Below are positions 9,763-38,909 of a stretch of DNA of 64,000 nt, in pieces. Position 1 is the stretch's first letter; the number at the start of each line of letters is the position of its first letter. Origin of the DNA: Kutzneria viridogrisea (GTDB lineage: Bacteria; Actinomycetota; Actinomycetes; Mycobacteriales; Pseudonocardiaceae); contig JACJID010000009.1 in the NCBI GenBank assembly GCA_014138725.1, positions 310,001-374,000 on the forward strand, read 5' to 3'. Under the pieces are notes generated by a model. It saw only the letters and a program-made list of their open reading frames with translations. It was not told the origin of the DNA and made no database searches. The translations under genes were made by a program, and so were the position numbers.

Positions 9763-10149
9763 GCTGGTAGCTCCTCAGCTGCTCGTCCAGGCGATCCGCC
9801 CCATCGACACCGCAACGGTAGTCGCTTGTGAACGGATGCACAAAGTCGCCGGACGGGGGCGTGGGACGGCACACAGCGAGCTGGGGCACACGGTTCACCG
9901 GTTCGGATGACACGGCCGAGCGGGTCAGTGGTCCCCGGCCGGCAATCCGTCGCCACCGGGCCCCAATTCTGCGGCCGACAGTCGACAAGAATGCACGAAA
10001 AACGCCGGATCACCATCGTTGACAGCCACTCGCCAGATGTCGAATTCACGTCCTCTCGCCCCGGACCGGGACATGCCGAACCTGTTCCGCCAGGTGCGCA
10101 CCACCTGCGAGGAGACAGTGAATACGGCAGAGGAGTCGGAAAAAGCACT
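9763..10149. other. Intergenic region upstream of rex, no credible gene
   Basis: About 390 bases between the rex start and the fasciclin-gene terminator. Besides the Rex operator I see no protein-like frame in it. Open frames across it on both strands have no recognisable domains and are explained by high GC. It presumably holds the rex-hem promoter; exact -10 and -35 boxes could not be assigned with confidence. Confidence 0.5.
9826..9843. promoter_or_regulatory. Rex operator (ROP)
   Basis: TTGTGAACGGATGCACAA lies 64-81 bases upstream of the rex start. The known actinobacterial Rex site is TTGTGAA-N4-TTCACAA. Here the left arm is perfect, the 4-nt spacer is right and the right arm has one mismatch. 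The site is where the promoter of rex-hemACD should be, so it is probably the autoregulatory operator. Confidence 0.8.
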
Positions 10150-24453: not shown

Positions 24454-25299
24454 TCAGGAGCTGTTCGTCTCCTGGGGGCTCAGCGCGAGCTGGCGGGCCT
24501 GGCAGACGAGTCGGCCGGTGCTGTCCAGGATGGTGGCGTCCTGGTCGAACCACTGGCCGTAGACGGCTCGGCAGTCGACCTGCACGCGCAGCCAGCCGGG
24601 CTCGGGGCGCGAGCGGACCAGGCCGGTCAGCTGCACGGTCGGCGACCAACCCACCCGGCCGAGGTTGAACGTGACCGGCATGGAGATGTCCCCGGCGACC
24701 AGCGCGAAGTACGGGTCGGGCTGTTCGCCGTCACGCGGGCGCACCCACAGGCGCAGGCGCAGCGGATCACCGGTGCGCCGCTCCAGGAAGCCCGCTCCGA
24801 CCGGGTCGACGAGCACCTCGCAGGCGCGGGCGAGCTTGAACACGCCGACCAGGTTGGGCAGCGCGCCGATGTCGATGGCCCCGGGCGGCGGCAGCACGGG
24901 CAGATCGGGCAGGTCGCGCCAGGCGGGCCGCTCCTCGGGCAGGCGGCCGACGGTGACCATGCCCTCCACGCAGGTGCTGCCCCGTTGCTCCAGTGCGACG
25001 CGCACGACGGTCACGGTCCGCCCGGCCTTGCGGACCTCGGTGCGCAGCATCACCGGGCCCACCGAGGGCGGGCGCAGGAACTGGGCGCTGACCGAGAGCG
25101 GCTCCAACTGCCCGGCACCGGAGCCGTCCGCCACGAGCACGGCGGCCTTGGCCAGCAGCGCAAGCAGGAAGCCCCCGTGCGGCTTGGGGCCGACGGTCCA
25201 ATCGGCGGGCAGGTCGGCGATGGCTGTGCCGTCACCGAGCGGGCGCACCGCCGTGGCCGCGGCGAAGGAACGGAGCACCGGCGTCTGTTCGGGGCTCAT
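24454..25299 (-). CDS. Thioesterase (TesB/hotdog-type acyl-CoA thioesterase)
   Basis: 281 residues, a double hotdog fold. N-terminal half: 'DWTVGPKPHGGFLLALLAKAA' with the hotdog helix and 'PLSVSAQFLRPPSVGPVMLRTEVRKAGRTV' (split). C-terminal half: 'GDISMPVTFNLGRVGWSPTVQLT', 'GWLRVQVDCRAVYGQWFDQDATILDSTG' (split). It probably hydrolyses acyl-CoA; the natural chain length is unknown. The ATG at 25299 overlaps the stop of a mini-ORF element (ATGA). That element couples it to the proline dehydrogenase gene upstream. Confidence 0.82.
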   Translation of the reverse strand: MSPEQTPVLRSFAAATAVRPLGDGTAIADLPADWTVGPKPHGGFLLALLAKAAVLVADGSGAGQLEPLSVSAQFLRPPSVGPVMLRTEVRKAGRTVTVVRVALEQRGSTCVEGMVTVGRLPEERPAWRDLPDLPVLPPPGAIDIGALPNLVGVFKLARACEVLVDPVGAGFLERRTGDPLRLRLWVRPRDGEQPDPYFALVAGDISMPVTFNLGRVGWSPTVQLTGLVRSRPEPGWLRVQVDCRAVYGQWFDQDATILDSTGRLVCQARQLALSPQETNSS

Positions 25300-25376
25300 G
25301 CCCGCACCTCGCTAGCGCTCGGCGAGGACATGAGCCCCGGCACCGCGCTGAATGACTCGCTCGCGAGCTCGCTCAT
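25296..25376 (-). repeat. MIRU-like 81-bp mini-ORF element, copy A (26 aa)
   Basis: The element fills the whole gap between proline dehydrogenase and the thioesterase. It reads ATG...TGA for 26 codons, starting MSELASES and ending PSASEVRA. Its ATG overlaps the upstream stop (ATGA) and its TGA overlaps the downstream ATG (ATGA). Copies B (30213-30293) and C (38859-38909) share the (M/V)(S/T)ELA start and SxxSE end, and at DNA level the CCTCGCT and CTCGC(A/G)AGCTCG blocks. Confidence 0.85.
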
Positions 25377-27165: not shown

Positions 27166-28470
27166 CTAGTGCCCGACGAGCAGCAGCACGGCGGGTGAGA
27201 CCGTCACGATCAGCCCGACCAGCACGGCGAGCACCATGGTCTGCAGGTCGTCCGCCTTGCGGATCTTGCGGACCACGATGACCAGCCCGATGATCACCGC
27301 GACCGCGGCGGCCAGCGCGGCGGCGGGCAGCGCGTTCCACAGCAGCTGGAAGCCCAGCCACAGCGCGGCGCCGCCGACCAGGCCGACCCCGAGCTGCACG
27401 GCCATCATCAGCCACTCGCGGCCGGGCGAGGCAGCGGGGGCCTCCTCCGCGGACTCCTCGTCGGTCTCCAGCGGGGCGTCCACCCCGGCCGGAGCCGCGT
27501 CGGGCGCCACCGAGTAACCCGCGAAGGCGTCGCCCTCGGCGTACTCGTAGTCCTCTTCGTACTCCTCGTACTCGCCGTCCACGTACGGGCCGGGGTGCGC
27601 CTGCGTGCTCTCCTGCGGAGTGACCTCGGCCGAGTCGTACTCGTCCTCGTCGAGCAGCGGACCGAGGTGGGCCTGGGTGTGCTCCCCGGTGTCCACCAGC
27701 GGACCCGGGTGCGCCTGCGTGCTCTCCGCGACCGCCTCGGGCCGCCGGGGCTGCGGGCGCCCAGGGGCCTGCGGCGGCTCCTCGGTGATCCGGGGCAGCT
27801 GCTCGGTCGCCGACTCGGGCGGGGCACCGGCCAGCCGCGCGGACAGCCCACCGGCCTCCGGCGGCACCGGGCGGTGCTGGGTCGTGTCACCGACGTTGTC
27901 CACGCCACCGGGCCCGACCGGCCGGAAGTAGCCGGTGGGCTGGGGTGCGGGCGGCTGGCCCTGCGGGGCGCCCGGCGGCGGTCCCTGCGGGGGTCTCGGT
28001 CCCAGGTCCGAACGCGACAGGTTGGTCCGCGAGGACTCGATACGCGGCGGCGGGGTGCGGCCGGGCGCGGGCCTGCCCGGGCGGTTGGGCAGCGGCTGCG
28101 CGCCGGAGGGCTGCTGCGCGGGCGCGCCAGGTGGCGGCGCCACCGGCGGCGGGGCCTGCGGCGGCCGGATCGGCTGCTGCACCGCGGCCTGCGGCGGCTG
28201 CGGGGTCTGGGGCGGCGCGGGCGCCTGCTGGGGGCGCACCGGCGGACCGCTGACGCTGGTCTCCTCGGCCGGGTCGTCCCTGATCGGCAGCATGCGCCCG
28301 CTGTCGGACAGCACCCGGTCGATGATCGTCTGGGGTGCTGTCTCGCTCGGCTCGTCGGCCCTGCGCCTGCGCCTGCGCGCGGGTGCGGCCTCCTCGGCTT
28401 TGCCGCCGTACTGCGCGAGCAACTCCGCGACCGTGCGCTGGGTGTGCTCCGAACCGCTTTCTCGACTCAT
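27166..28470 (-). CDS. Proline-rich membrane protein with TQAH repeats (Rv0497-like)
   Basis: 434 residues. N-terminus '[25 protein letters not shown]' (split) is the conserved cytoplasmic motif of this actinobacterial family. Then ~200 residues of Pro/Gln/Ala/Gly-rich sequence follow, then an acidic region with three copies of a 'TQAHxGPxxD' motif (near residues 245-305). Three membrane helices at the end contain '[20 protein letters not shown]', '[17 protein letters not shown]' and '[20 protein letters not shown]'. ATG at 28470 overlaps the ppx stop (ATGA). The function is unknown. A role at the cell envelope is inferred only from its topology and conserved linkage to ppx and senX3-regX3. 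Confidence 0.75.
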
Positions 28471-29462
28471 TGATTCCACCGTGCCCCGAACTGGGCCGTC
28501 CGTCCAGTGCCACCGGCACCGTCCGAGCCGTCCGAGCGGTCCAACCGTCGAAGGATGACACCTTCGCGCAGTGCCCAGGGGCAGATTTCCAGTTCCGACA
28601 GTGACAGCGCTCGCATGGTGGCCTCAGCCACGAGCGCACCGGCGACCAGCTGGTGGGCCCGGCTGGAGCTGACCCCCTCCAACTCGGCGAGGTCGGAGGC
28701 CGACATCCGGGAGATGAAGGCGATCAGCTGTCGCAGCCCGGACACGGTCAGCACCCGGCGGGCGCGCGGTCCCTCCGAGGAGGGCGCCGCGCCGGTCAGC
28801 CTGGCCAGCGTCCGGAAGGTCTTGGAGGTGGCGACCACCAGGTCCGGGTCGCCGATCCGGCGGACCCGCTTGGCCACCGGGGCGATCTGCTCGTCCAGCC
28901 ACTCCACCGTGTCCCGCAGCTCGTGCCTGCTCGGCGGGTCGTGCTTGAACCGCGTTCTGGTGACCCGGCCCGCGCCCAGCGGGATGGAGCAGGCCAGGTC
29001 GGGGTTCTCGTCCCGGCCCACGGCCAGCTCCAGCGAGCCGCCGCCGATGTCGAGCACCAGCAGCCTGCCCGCCGACCAGCCGTACCACCGGCGGGTGGCG
29101 AGGAAGGTGTAGCGGGCCTCGTCCTCGCCGGAGAGCACCTGGAGGTCCACCCCGGTCTCCGCGCGGACCCGGTCCAGCACGGCCGCGCTGTTGCCCGCCT
29201 CGCGCACCGCCGAGGTGGCGAAGGCCATCAGGTCCTCGCAGCCGAACTGCAGGGCCGAGGCCTTGCCGTCGGCGACCGCCCTGACCAGCGCGTCCGAGCC
29301 CGCCTTGGAGAGCAGGCCGTTGTGCGTGATCTGCTCGGCCAGGCGCAACATCGTCTTCTCGGAGCTCATCGGCGTTGGATGGGCACCACGATGCGCGTCC
29401 ACGACCAGCAGGTGGACCGTGTTCGAACCGACGTCAAGCACCCCTAGGCGCACGTCGAGCAC
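28467..29462 (-). CDS. Exopolyphosphatase/guanosine pentaphosphatase (Ppx/GppA)
   Basis: About 331 residues, matching the short two-domain Ppx of Actinobacteria. The ASKHA fold is clear: 'LGVLDVGSNTVHLLVVDA' (phosphate 1), 'MAFATSAVREAGNSA', 'GEDEARYTFLATRR' with the catalytic Glu, 'LLVLDIGGGSLELAVGRD' (phosphate 2) and 'GAGRVTRTRF'. It removes terminal phosphate from polyphosphate or pppGpp. The start is GTG at 29462, or GTG nine bases later. It lies downstream of the phosphate two-component system and is coupled to the Pro-rich membrane protein. Confidence 0.9.
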   Translation of the reverse strand: MLDVRLGVLDVGSNTVHLLVVDAHRGAHPTPMSSEKTMLRLAEQITHNGLLSKAGSDALVRAVADGKASALQFGCEDLMAFATSAVREAGNSAAVLDRVRAETGVDLQVLSGEDEARYTFLATRRWYGWSAGRLLVLDIGGGSLELAVGRDENPDLACSIPLGAGRVTRTRFKHDPPSRHELRDTVEWLDEQIAPVAKRVRRIGDPDLVVATSKTFRTLARLTGAAPSSEGPRARRVLTVSGLRQLIAFISRMSASDLAELEGVSSSRAHQLVAGALVAEATMRALSLSELEICPWALREGVILRRLDRSDGSDGAGGTGRTAQFGARWNQ

Positions 29463-29535: not shown

Positions 29536-30216
29536 TCAGGACTCGAACTTGTAGCCGAGGCCACGCACCGTGACCAGATGCTGCGGGGCGGACGGGTCCG
29601 GCTCGATCTTGGAGCGCAGCCGCTTGACGTGCACGTCCAGCGTCTTGGTGTCGCCCACGTAGTCCGCGCCCCACACCCGGTCGATCAGCTGGCCGCGGGT
29701 GAGCACCCGGCCCACGTTGCGCAACAGGTACTCCAGCAGGTCGAACTCCTTGAGCGGCAGCGAGACCTCGCCGCCGTCCACGGTGACCACGTGCCGCTCC
29801 ACGTCCATCCGCACCGGGCCCGCCTCCAGGACCTGGGGCAGCAGCTCCTCGGACTCGCCGCCGCGCCGCAGCACGGCCCGGATCCGGGCGATCAGCTCGC
29901 GGGCCGAGTACGGCTTGGTCACGTAGTCGTCGGCACCCAGCTCCAGGCCGACCACCTTGTCGATCTCGCTGTCCCGCGCCGTCACCATGATCACCGGCAC
30001 GGCGGAGCGCTGCCGCAGCGCCTTGCACACGTCGGTCCCGCTCATGCCGGGCAGCATCAGGTCGAGCAGCACGATGTCGGCCCCGTTGCGGTCGAACTCC
30101 TCCAGCGCCTCCTGGCCGGTGATGGCCACGGCCGCGGTGAAGCCCTCCTTGCGCAGCAGGAACGCGAGCGGGTCGGCGAAGGACTCCTCGTCCTCGACGA
30201 TGAGCACCCTGGTCAC
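29536..30216 (-). CDS. regX3: OmpR-family response regulator RegX3
   Basis: 226 residues. The receiver domain runs ~1-120 with phospho-acceptor Asp52 in 'DIVLLDLMLPGMSG', acidic pocket 'VEDEE' (residues 8-12) and Lys in 'DYVTKPYSARELIARI'. A winged-helix output domain runs ~130-226 with 'LPLKEFDLLEYLLRNVGRVLTRGQLIDRVWG' (split) and 'VHVKRLRSKIEPDP'. In mycobacteria and corynebacteria it activates phosphate-starvation genes. The GTG start at 30216 overlaps the stop of mini-ORF copy B, which bridges it to senX3. Confidence 0.95.
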   Translation of the reverse strand: MTRVLIVEDEESFADPLAFLLRKEGFTAAVAITGQEALEEFDRNGADIVLLDLMLPGMSGTDVCKALRQRSAVPVIMVTARDSEIDKVVGLELGADDYVTKPYSARELIARIRAVLRRGGESEELLPQVLEAGPVRMDVERHVVTVDGGEVSLPLKEFDLLEYLLRNVGRVLTRGQLIDRVWGADYVGDTKTLDVHVKRLRSKIEPDPSAPQHLVTVRGLGYKFES

Positions 30217-30293
30217 AGACCCTCCTCGCTAACGCTCGTCGAGTCCGCGACCAGCGTCTCTGCGCCCAATGGTGCCCTCGCAAGCTCGGTCAC
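30213..30293 (-). repeat. MIRU-like 81-bp mini-ORF element, copy B, between senX3 and regX3
   Basis: The element exactly spans senX3 to regX3 and encodes 26 codons from GTG to TGA, beginning VTELARAP and ending STSVSEEGL. The GTG overlaps the senX3 stop (GTGA) and the TGA overlaps the regX3 GTG (GTGA). It is the same length as copy A and related in both sequence and position. MIRUs were originally described in this same intergenic position in mycobacteria. Confidence 0.85.
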
Positions 30294-31546
30294 AGCTTTC
30301 CTCCATGATCGGGACTACCGACACCGTTGCCGGTGTCCACACCGTCCGCTCCGGTCGGGACGAGTGTGGTGTCTCGGTCAGCCGCGTCCTGTTCGGCGCG
30401 TGGCTGCTCCTCGTCACCGGCCGACGACGCCGAGGCGCCGTGTGCCGGGATGCGCAGGGTGAAGGTGGAGCCGGTGCCAGGACGGCTCCACAGGCGGACC
30501 TCGCCACCGTGGTTGGCGGCCACGTGCTTGACGATGGCCAGGCCAAGGCCGGTGCCGCCGGTCGCGCGCGAACGCGCCGGATCGGCCCGGTAGAAGCGTT
30601 CGAACACGCGGTGCTGCTGGTCCAGCACGATGCCGATGCCCCGGTCGGTGACCGCGATCTCCACGAAGTCCCCGTCCCTGCGGCGGCTGACCGAGACCGG
30701 GCTGTCCGGCGGCGAGTAGGCCAGCGCGTTGTCCAGCAGGTTGCTCAGCGCGGTGACCAGCAGCGTGCGGTCCCCGTCCACGACCAGCTCGCTCGGCCCG
30801 TCGGTGTCGATGTCGATGCCCGCGGACTCGGCGGCCAGCCTGCTGCGGCCCAGGGCCTCGCGGACCACCTCGTCCACCGACACCGGGGTCATCTCCGGCA
30901 ACTGCTCGGCGCCCTGTAGCCGGGACAGCGCGATCAGCTCGGTCACCAGCCTGCCCAGCCGGGTCGCCTCGTGCAGGATCTTGCTGCTGAACCGGCGTAC
31001 CTCGACCTGGTCGTCGGCGGCGTCGAGCACCGCCTCGGCAAGCAGCGCCAGCGCACCGACCGGGGTCTTCAGCTCGTGGCTGACGTTGGCGACGAAGTCA
31101 CGGCGGATGGCCTCCAGCCGCACGGCGTCGGACTCGTCGGAGGCGTCGACCACGGTGAAGCCGTCACCGAGCGGGCGCACCTCGCCGCGCACGGCCTCGG
31201 GTTGCCTGCCCACGCGGGACTGCAGCGGGGACAGGTCCACCTCCATCACCTCGCCGGACTGGCTGACCAGCTCCGCGGCCTTGCGTGCGCGGTCGTCGAC
31301 CTGGCTCCCCTTGACCACGCCCAGCGCCGCGGCCCTGGGGTTGTGCAGGACCACGTCGCCGAAGCTGTTGAGCACCACGACGCCGTTGTGCGAGGAGTGC
31401 ACGACGCGCTGGACGAGGTCGGAGACGGTCAACACCGCTGGTTTGCCTGCCGTTCTCCGTGCCGCCGATCGGGCGATCAAGGAACCAGCCAAGGCGCCGA
31501 TCAGCAGCAGGCCGATCGACAGGGCGATGTAGCCCAATGCGGTCAC
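30290..31546 (-). CDS. senX3: Sensor histidine kinase SenX3
   Basis: 418 residues. One or two N-terminal membrane helices ('GYIALSIGLLLIGALAGSLIA'; no sizeable extracytoplasmic domain), then a PAS-like domain ('SSHNGVVVLNSFGDVVLHNPRAAAL', split). The dimerisation box is 'FVANVSHELKTPVGAL' with phospho-acceptor His157. The ATPase domain carries N box 'LLDNALAYSP', G1 'DRGIGI', F 'FERFYRAD' and G2 'GGTGLGLAIVKH'. The acidic C-terminal tail of ~50 residues is disordered. It phosphorylates RegX3 and likely responds to phosphate supply. A PHO-box-like triple repeat lies ~85 bases upstream. Confidence 0.94.
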   Translation of the reverse strand: MTALGYIALSIGLLLIGALAGSLIARSAARRTAGKPAVLTVSDLVQRVVHSSHNGVVVLNSFGDVVLHNPRAAALGVVKGSQVDDRARKAAELVSQSGEVMEVDLSPLQSRVGRQPEAVRGEVRPLGDGFTVVDASDESDAVRLEAIRRDFVANVSHELKTPVGALALLAEAVLDAADDQVEVRRFSSKILHEATRLGRLVTELIALSRLQGAEQLPEMTPVSVDEVVREALGRSRLAAESAGIDIDTDGPSELVVDGDRTLLVTALSNLLDNALAYSPPDSPVSVSRRRDGDFVEIAVTDRGIGIVLDQQHRVFERFYRADPARSRATGGTGLGLAIVKHVAANHGGEVRLWSRPGTGSTFTLRIPAHGASASSAGDEEQPRAEQDAADRDTTLVPTGADGVDTGNGVGSPDHGGKL

Positions 31547-38334: not shown

Positions 38335-38862
38335 TCAGGATTCGTCGGCCACCGAGGGCTCGTCCCGTCCCGCGCCGACCAGGTGCTGGAAGGCGTTGAG
38401 GTTGGCCAGCGACTCACCGCGGGAGACCCGCCAGTCCCACTCCCTGCGGATCGCCGAGGCGAAGCCGATCTCCAACAGGGTGTTGAAGTCCCCGTCCGCG
38501 GCCTCCAGCACCTGGCCGAGCACGCGGTCCAGTTCCTCCGGCGTGACCGCGCCCAGGCCGATCCTGCCGACCAGGTAGATGTCGCCCCTGCTGTCCAGCG
38601 TGTAGTGCACCCCGTAGAGACGAGCGTTGCGCCGCAACAGGAATCGGTACAGGTCCTGGTGTGCCTCGTCCGGCTGGCGGCACACGAACGCCTCCACCAC
38701 GAGCGCGTGTTCGGTCACCAGCAGCCAGCAGTTCGTCTGCTGCTTCTTGGTCCCGGGCAGCGTGACGAAGTAGCGCCCCGGCCCCTTGCGGTCGTGGCTG
38801 ATCTCGTTCTCGCGCAGCACGTCACCGATGACGCCGTCCAGCTCGTCCAGCGTCGGACTCAT
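38335..38862 (-). CDS. YbjN-domain protein (Rv0487-like)
   Basis: 175 residues. A YbjN/type-III-secretion-chaperone-like alpha/beta fold: 'LDGVIGDVLRENEIS', 'GRYFVTLPGTKKQQTNCWLLV', 'VVEAFVCRQPDEAHQDLYRFLLRRNARLYGVHYTLD' (split), 'DIYLVGRIGLGAVTPEELDRVLGQVLEAAD' (split). The family is cytosolic and of uncertain function, perhaps a folding or assembly factor. ATG at 38862 overlaps the stop of mini-ORF copy C, so it is coupled through that element to mshA, next to which it is also found in mycobacteria. Confidence 0.82.
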   Translation of the reverse strand: MSPTLDELDGVIGDVLRENEISHDRKGPGRYFVTLPGTKKQQTNCWLLVTEHALVVEAFVCRQPDEAHQDLYRFLLRRNARLYGVHYTLDSRGDIYLVGRIGLGAVTPEELDRVLGQVLEAADGDFNTLLEIGFASAIRREWDWRVSRGESLANLNAFQHLVGAGRDEPSVADES

Positions 38863-38909
38863 CGGCACACCTCGCTGGCGCCCGATGATCCGCTCGCAAG
38901 CTCGCTCAC
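38859..38909 (-). repeat. MIRU-like 51-bp mini-ORF element, copy C, between mshA and the ybjN-like gene
   Basis: A short form of the element: 16 codons, VSELASGS then SGASEVCR, from GTG to TGA. The GTG overlaps the mshA stop (GTGA) and the TGA overlaps the next gene's ATG (ATGA). Relative to copies A and B it lacks 30 bp (ten codons) from the middle, so the frame is kept. Long and short forms thus coexist. Confidence 0.85.

Follow-up and report, generated by a model that had tools for sequence, protein, structure and literature searches.

The senX3-regX3 gap of Kutzneria viridogrisea consists entirely of an 81-nt GTG..TGA open reading frame (ORF) of 26 codons, and the question that it raises is what such an ORF is and how it came to lie between two overlapping stop and start codons. 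The DNA analysed was a stretch of 64,000 nucleotides, referred to throughout as the window. Mycobacterial MIRUs were reportedly first described by Supply et al. in 1997 in this very junction. To our knowledge, neither the movement of MIRUs nor the reason for their start-codon sites has been explained. The parts of a 2025 review that deal with them (PMC12548453) describe MIRUs as apparently mobile, as inserting at start codons and as containing an ORF coupled at −4 nt. Passages of two further papers (PMC2734929 and PMC7884335) give additional background, the former noting the routine use of MIRUs in tuberculosis typing. A passage of PMC4128351 describes an M. bovis gene with a 5′ UTR formed entirely by a 77-nt class I MIRU, the ortholog in M. 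marinum being leaderless.

Results

The junction and its neighbors

The ORF, its coordinates and its GTGA overlaps on both sides had been given in a preliminary description made from the sequence alone, and all were confirmed by sequence and ORF reading (Table 1). The senX3 TGA sits within the GTGA that starts the mini-ORF, and the mini-ORF TGA overlaps the regX3 GTG. With the first codon taken as Met, the peptide reads MTELARAPLGAETLVADSTSVSEEGL. The right helix of this copy extends into the right GTGA (columns 44-47 with 78-81), and this GTGA was probably carried by the element. The GGAGGA at the end of senX3 is, by its sequence, a candidate for a Shine-Dalgarno-like function; a motif of this type precedes regX3 in empty sites and precedes the mini-ORF in the occupied copy. 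Directly downstream of regX3 lies a gene for a Ppx/GppA-type exopolyphosphatase (window 28467-29459, minus strand).

Table 1. Coordinates, within the window, of the senX3-regX3 junction and of the two other copies (columns are those of the unit)
Feature	Position	Strand	Basis or remark
regX3, OmpR-type response regulator	29536..30216	-	Pfam Response_reg, Trans_reg_C
senX3, sensor histidine kinase	30290..31546	-	Pfam HisKA, HATPase_c
GGAGGA at senX3 end	30299..30304	-	sequence
Mini-ORF, senX3-regX3 copy	30213..30293	-	26 codons + stop; sequence
Left GTGA	30290..30293	-	putative target site, senX3 stop and mini-ORF start; sequence, empty sites
Inserted 77 bp	30213-30289	-	presumably directly after target GTGA; empty sites in relatives
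Left-end hairpin, columns 1-22	30272..30293	-	covariation; copy itself checked
Internal tetranucleotide GCAC	30272-30275	-	three bases pair with left GTGA in this copy
Right-end hairpin, columns 48-77 (stem 48-54/71-77)	30217..30246	-	register scan; Shine-Dalgarno-like GAGG in loop
Element-borne Shine-Dalgarno-like GAGGAGGG ahead of regX3	30220..30227	-	sequence
Right GTGA	30213..30216	-	mini-ORF stop and regX3 start; sequence
Second copy	25296..25376	-	77-bp unit, ATGA at both ends, 26-codon mini-ORF; 55.9 bits
Third copy	38859..38909	-	GTGA left, ATGA right, 16-codon mini-ORF; 30.5 bits

Copies in the genome and across the order

A blastn search with the junction returned 14 matches genome-wide, the junction being one of them. 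A sequence-only model built from 14 copies (the senX3-regX3 and second window copies among them, the third window copy outside the set) returned 109 matches at E ≤ 10, of which 80 were kept at E ≤ 0.0135 and 29 were dropped. The 80 matches fall at 69 sites, 61 of them with a single unit, five double and three triple, and in the eight arrays the repeat period is 75, 77 or 78 bp. The unit of 77 bp is within the MIRU length range of about 40 to 100 bp. The 17-mer of its 5′ end, with up to three mismatches, occurs 58 + 60 times, as against 15 + 12 times for the backwards control. It was concluded that the element is not a product of chance, because of the blastn copies, the profile matches and the excess of the 17-mer over its control. 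The distribution over contigs is uneven: the 2.23-Mb contig C1 has three sites where 15.0 would be expected, and C7 and C11 have none between them as against 3.9.

Applied unfiltered to the whole window, the family model gave 64.8 bits at the junction (30224-30293), 55.9 bits at 25307-25375 and 30.5 bits at 38854-38909, the next best stretch having 12.6 bits, in agreement with an earlier claim of two related elements in the window. The second copy lies between the genes for proline dehydrogenase and an acyl-CoA thioesterase. The third, which has an internal deletion (40-bp core) and still keeps the phase of its mini-ORF, lies between mshA and a YbjN-domain gene. Given these neighbors, the suggested role of the element in keeping two-component genes linked is not specific.

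All seven genomes of the genus, the present one included, were positive, with 73, 61, 20, 31, 83, 80 and 5 matches at E ≤ 0.001. Across the order, a search with stricter filters gave matches in 115 of 298 genomes, a count that includes the present one; they represent 32 of 77 genera and eight family codes, and some match only marginally. The possibility raised in the preliminary description, that the element has no relatives elsewhere, clearly fails on these counts. The best E was below 1e-8 in family codes f1, f2, f8, f15 and f16, of which f8 is the code holding Mycobacterium; f1 presumably stands for Pseudonocardiaceae, f16 for Geodermatophilaceae and f8g28 for Mycobacterium in the GTDB sense. 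In the best-scoring loci of other genomes, an ORF of 26 to 27 codons with xTGA at both ends was present in 33 of 36, locus L120, displayed on the wrong strand, being left out of the count. Eight probable Mycobacterium genomes were searched closely; three gave matches that were weak, incomplete or imperfect, the best of them at E 4.8e-5, and five gave none at E < 0.05. In four probable Mycobacterium loci (L253, L254, L255 and L265), weak-scoring partial or imperfect copies stand at gene starts, a placement that fits the rule described below, and those in L253 and L255 are in frame into long ORFs. Among 80 named RegX3 loci of 5 to 20 kb from other genera (1.53 Mb), two family-model matches were found at E < 0.001, in Antrihabitans and Actinokineospora, so that in most of these loci few or no members of the family lie close to regX3. 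Phages, plasmids and viral contigs, searched with one unit or one pattern, gave no family match.

Searches of an open-access library listed no description of such elements outside mycobacteria, which is weak evidence of novelty as subscription papers were mostly outside its scope. A Kutzneria albida paper (PMC4210621) was considered as a source on MIRUs and rejected, as the "MIRU" matches in the part of its text concerned are the word "mirum".

Empty sites in relatives

Within the genus, the senX3-regX3 junction is occupied in three of seven genomes (by 77, 77 and 74 bp) and is a bare GTGA or ATGA in the other four. The element is absent from all 29 junctions read in other genera of the Pseudonocardiaceae (the best RegX3 scorers of 53 genomes); 26 of these have a bare 4-bp overlap, GTGA or ATGA, and three have TAGTGA. 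Of the 80 named loci mentioned above, 76 junctions were readable and 60 had a bare overlap. The site of the second window copy is a bare ATGA in all five congeners read. That of the third is empty (GTGA or TTGA) in all six other-genus regions, no congener region having been found for comparison. Two sites outside the window were also read. The copy at C6:192929 is present in the own strain only (one of seven genus genomes), the closest relative having GTGA and the other five TGATGA. The copy at C3:1286934 is occupied in five of the seven, and the own unit there is strongly unlike the units of the four congeners, with the x bases swapped (GTGA..ATGA as against ATGA..GTGA). Judging from this unlikeness, the own unit may represent a separate insertion, i.e., a second hit, or a replacement at the same start codon.

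Relatives thus had an empty site, lying at a stop/start overlap, at all five loci examined, and four sites vary within the genus. The left x matched that of the empty site at four of the five loci, and the right x differed from it at three, namely, at the third window copy, at C6:192929 relative to the closest empty relative and in the congeners' copy at C3:1286934. Since the left x is kept and the right x differs, the comparison suggests that the element inserts just 3′ of xTGA and brings the right xTGA along.

A 71-bp insert was also seen at the senX3-regX3 junction of Amycolatopsis antarctica (L289, approximately 9925-10003). It begins GTGACCGAGCTC, ends in GTGA and is unmatched by the family model, and it is perhaps a third insertion, related or convergent.

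Placement at start codons and retention of frame

An xTGA head was found in 74 of the 80 matches; nearly all of the empty sites that were read had xTGA or TGATGA. The six matches without this head (at four of the 69 sites) include two second units of arrays and were left out of the site counts. At 50 of the 65 xTGA-head sites, the terminal xTGA overlaps an ORF lying downstream, which has 60 codons or more in 47 cases and fewer in three. The other 15 run on in frame; an unlinked stop at the end of the mini-ORF was found at none of the 65. The three short-ORF sites are an array, a 54-codon ORF and a frame exception, C1:236781, where the mini-ORF stop is out of phase and a few bases beyond the ATG. 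The run-on sites include one array of three units, closed by ATGA after 78 codons, and two sites (C2:1441816 and C8:413826) with a weak coding bias (0.08). As a control, 813 further xTGA sites from these loci gave 193 unlinked stops, 62 coupled sites and 435 in frame in long ORFs, the remainder being 64 long ones without coding bias and 59 that overlap a short ORF. The 873 xTGA sites of the window were assigned by a crude gene caller, which placed 22 at gene starts and 117 in intergenic DNA; a p value of 9e-53 depends on this caller and on independence of sites and was not relied on.

The comparison between frames is partly trivial, as frame 1 starts at TGA and frame 2 is the frame of the downstream gene, and more weight was placed on the control above and on length variants. 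Sixteen coupled sites had a span other than 26 codons, and two of these (C4:1022149 and C5:256854), whose units have the full 77 bp and a stop one codon ahead of the usual one, were excluded. In the remaining coupled sites and arrays, whose span is other than 77 bp, the phase was kept in 13 of 14 (binomial p 6e-6). A Shine-Dalgarno-like motif was present within 16 nt of the downstream start in 48 of the 50 coupled sites. At 39 of the 65 sites the upstream gene stops at the TGA of the element; the remaining 26 have no long upstream ORF that ends, or can be recognised as ending, in this TGA. The common factor was therefore deduced to be the start codon rather than the stop/start overlap, which is common and not required for placement of the element. 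Placement at start codons could result from selection after random insertion.

Hairpins at the two ends

For analysis of structure, 74 unique units were used (40 from the own and 34 from other genomes), each with a length of exactly 77 bp and an xTGA at either end, length variants being left out. The left x (column 1) pairs with column 22 in 72 of the 74, as does column 5 with column 18, in several pair types. The 1-22 pairs comprised 48 G-C, 19 A-T, 5 G-T, 1 A-C and 1 G-A (Fisher p 5e-12 on 73). Columns 19-22 are mostly TCAC, GAAC, TCAT or GAAT, i.e., they are complementary to the left xTGA, either fully or but for two G-A mismatches. A register scan gave as best the left helix (sum 23) and a right helix of columns 48-54/71-77 (sum 125), separately in the own and in the other genomes. 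The column statistics thus show a hairpin with compensatory changes at each end of the element. Permutation values ignore the kinship of the copies and overstate significance; more weight is given to the agreement between own and foreign units and to the variety of pair types.

Extension of the right helix into the right xTGA (pair 47-78) was found in 31 of the 34 foreign units and in nine of the 40 own units, in which columns 44-47 are mostly GAAG or GCAG. The senX3-regX3 copy is among the own units with an extended helix, with 10 of 11 pairs formed from 44-81 to 54-71. The right-helix pairs 53-72 and 54-71 (called outermost) showed no excess over expectation. In folding against shuffles, the middle segment was more stable (mean z of −0.97, n = 90) and the whole unit was not (mean z of 0.00). 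For comparison with MITEs, which have terminal inverted repeats and a target duplication, the pairing of the two ends with each other was considered. RNAalifold on 14 copies produced only an end-to-end fold, with nine end-to-end column pairs, none of which had a two-sided change; the two-hairpin structure is local to each end.

Discussion

Proposed translation relay and mode of movement

The senX3-regX3 copy is very probably one copy of a dispersed, non-autonomous 77-bp mobile element, which would insert directly behind the xTGA of a start codon and hand ribosomes on to the downstream gene. A transposase acting in trans would presumably move it. This is consistent with the preliminary description of a mobile or inherited in-frame element, given the 69 sites, the empty sites in relatives and the in-frame rule. 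The target would be an xTGA (x being G, A or T) whose xTG is a gene start, most often overlapping the preceding stop. To this the element would add a 26-codon in-frame mini-ORF starting in the old xTGA, a Shine-Dalgarno sequence of its own and a new right xTGA, the last being at once the mini-ORF stop and the codon from which the downstream gene would now start. Before insertion, the GGAGGA-type site at the end of senX3 would have served regX3; after insertion, it would precede the mini-ORF, with GAGGAGGG preceding regX3. A ribosome finishing senX3 would then restart on the mini-ORF, cross both hairpins, stop at the second GTGA and restart on regX3. In this way a mobile element can live in a highly constrained operon site, a stop/start overlap, apparently by coding its own passage.

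The hairpins could act in the mRNA, each holding a start codon until it is opened by the ribosome from the preceding ORF, a prospect that we rate only slightly below even. The left hairpin would hold the start of the mini-ORF and the right one the downstream start, with the Shine-Dalgarno sequence in its loop, and downstream translation would be made dependent on that upstream. Both xTGA do lie within or beside covarying stems, the mini-ORF crosses both hairpins with its frame kept, and mismatches are often G-T on the sense strand (24 T51-G74; at 1-22, five G-T against one A-C). However, same-strand single-stranded DNA would give the same pattern, and A-C pairs are also present (at 50-75, 5 of 74). 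The folding energy of the whole unit is not below that of shuffles, and the 26 sites at which no long upstream ORF ends in the element also argue against this role.

Guide-directed, single-strand transposition as in IS200/IS605 is judged the likeliest mechanism of movement for the family and is proposed tentatively, at rather less than an even chance. The internal tetranucleotide (TCAC, GAAC, TCAT and so forth) would pair with the target xTGA on the left and the element's own xTGA on the right, and a Y1 transposase would cut in trans. This proposal is supported by the covariation of the left x with column 22, by the reach of the right helix to the right x in most foreign units and in the senX3-regX3 copy, and by the kept left x and differing right x relative to empty sites, as expected for landing 3′ of the target. 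IS200/IS605 elements and their non-autonomous derivatives likewise have a short, specific left target that is kept, an inner stretch complementary to the target, hairpins at both ends and no clear target duplication. They differ from the present family, which apparently has no linked transposase, has start-codon placement and has a different order of the left guide, this being 3′ of its hairpin and placed otherwise in IS608. Further points against the proposal are the low proportion of own units with the 47-78 pair and the prevailing GAAG or GCAG of their columns 44-47, the left G of the own copy at C3:1286934 as against A in the empty sites, and the TGATGA, rather than GTGA, of five congeners at C6:192929. 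In addition, the copies are related and their covariation may be partly inherited, and the pairings may serve translation instead.

A more speculative extension is that Mycobacteriales harbor a start-codon-targeting element whose guide tetranucleotide reads xTGA and which lands behind it, nearly silent for expression by virtue of its mini-ORF, Shine-Dalgarno sequence, hairpins and terminal xTGA, with MIRUs being a second family that uses the same trick. If this is true, the same four bases of senX3-regX3 were hit independently by at least two families.

Relation to mycobacterial MIRUs and other repeats

The same junction was read in 14 probable Mycobacterium loci, which had repeats of 53 to 56 bp in four, a degenerate 44 bp in one, a bare overlap in five and other spacers in four. 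Of the named records, those of Mycobacterium sp. E2733 and 852014-50255 have 53 bp at this place. A MIRU model, R2, was made from four sequences of the 53- to 56-bp repeats, M. tuberculosis class I MIRU not being among the sequences compared. R2 had no match in the own genome at E ≤ 0.01 and gave 3.7 bits at the junction. Its strong matches were only in probable Mycobacterium, the best E per genome elsewhere being 1e-2 to 2.4e-5, which was taken as background. In 16 pairwise comparisons of the 77-bp family with the 53-bp MIRU, with 500 shuffles each, p was 0.054 to 0.67, which is within chance. Neither approach supported homology to the 53-bp MIRU.

Identity of the element with the mycobacterial MIRU, whether through vertical inheritance or through transfer, is improbable. 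That identity would account for the same junction with the same stop/start rule, for the length of 77 nt that is also found in the class I MIRU of M. bovis (passage of PMC4128351) and for the GAGCG-TAGCGA-GAGG stretch common to the element and one 53-bp MIRU. It is opposed by the R2 and pairwise results, and the bare overlaps in 26 of the 29 loci from other Pseudonocardiaceae genera argue against one old insertion. The two kinds of element are alike in falling in the 40- to 100-bp length range, in start-codon insertion, in a small ORF coupled at −4 nt, in apparent mobility, in tandem arrays and in sharing this junction. They differ in that no sequence homology is demonstrable, in that the family unit is 77 bp as against 53 to 56 bp in the mycobacterial copies read, in that the 77-bp family has a covarying hairpin at each end, and in that it reaches a best E below 1e-8 in four codes besides that of Mycobacterium (f1, f2, f15 and f16). 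The term MIRU-like used in the preliminary description therefore holds for junction, stop/start rule and mobility and does not extend to sequence homology. From the sequences compared, the element appears to be built like a MIRU at the same site, with homology to MIRU not established. It belongs to a real mobile family of MIRU-like elements across several families of the order, which is new as far as the searches of open-access literature can tell. With dozens of similar copies, sites that vary among congeners and covarying ends, this soil-actinomycete family makes both MIRU questions, that of movement and that of start-codon sites, testable in organisms that are harmless.

We know of no fixed in-frame start-codon rule for BOX, RUP or REP/ERIC, the last of which resemble the family in being short, dispersed and non-autonomous. 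The BOX and RUP elements of pneumococcus have the same three properties in common with it (PMC3049150).

Frame rather than peptide

Between same-site insertions, pN/pS in the ORF frame was 1.27 (three genomes) and 1.79 (five genomes), as against 0.44 to 0.68 in the other two frames, values that come from small numbers and may be biased by nucleic-acid structure. Both length changes between same-site insertions were of 3 bp. From the pN/pS above 1 and the 3-bp changes it was deduced that the frame matters more than the peptide, and it would appear from these sequences that frame and nucleic-acid structure are kept and the peptide is not. A functional, conserved leader peptide of the type (V/M)SELAS... 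is thus scarcely credible and was rejected on the ORF-frame values: residues common to the copies, to which the preliminary description had drawn attention, would fit it, but they do not point to selection on the peptide, whose middle part varies freely, and copies with internal deletions persist.

One copy, at C3:832271 (L010 1599-1635, minus strand), has lost its 3′ end and is now the N terminus of an ORF, i.e., a repeat turned into protein. The ORF behind it reaches VVVIGGGP, a motif that, as read by eye, is like those of FAD-binding proteins.
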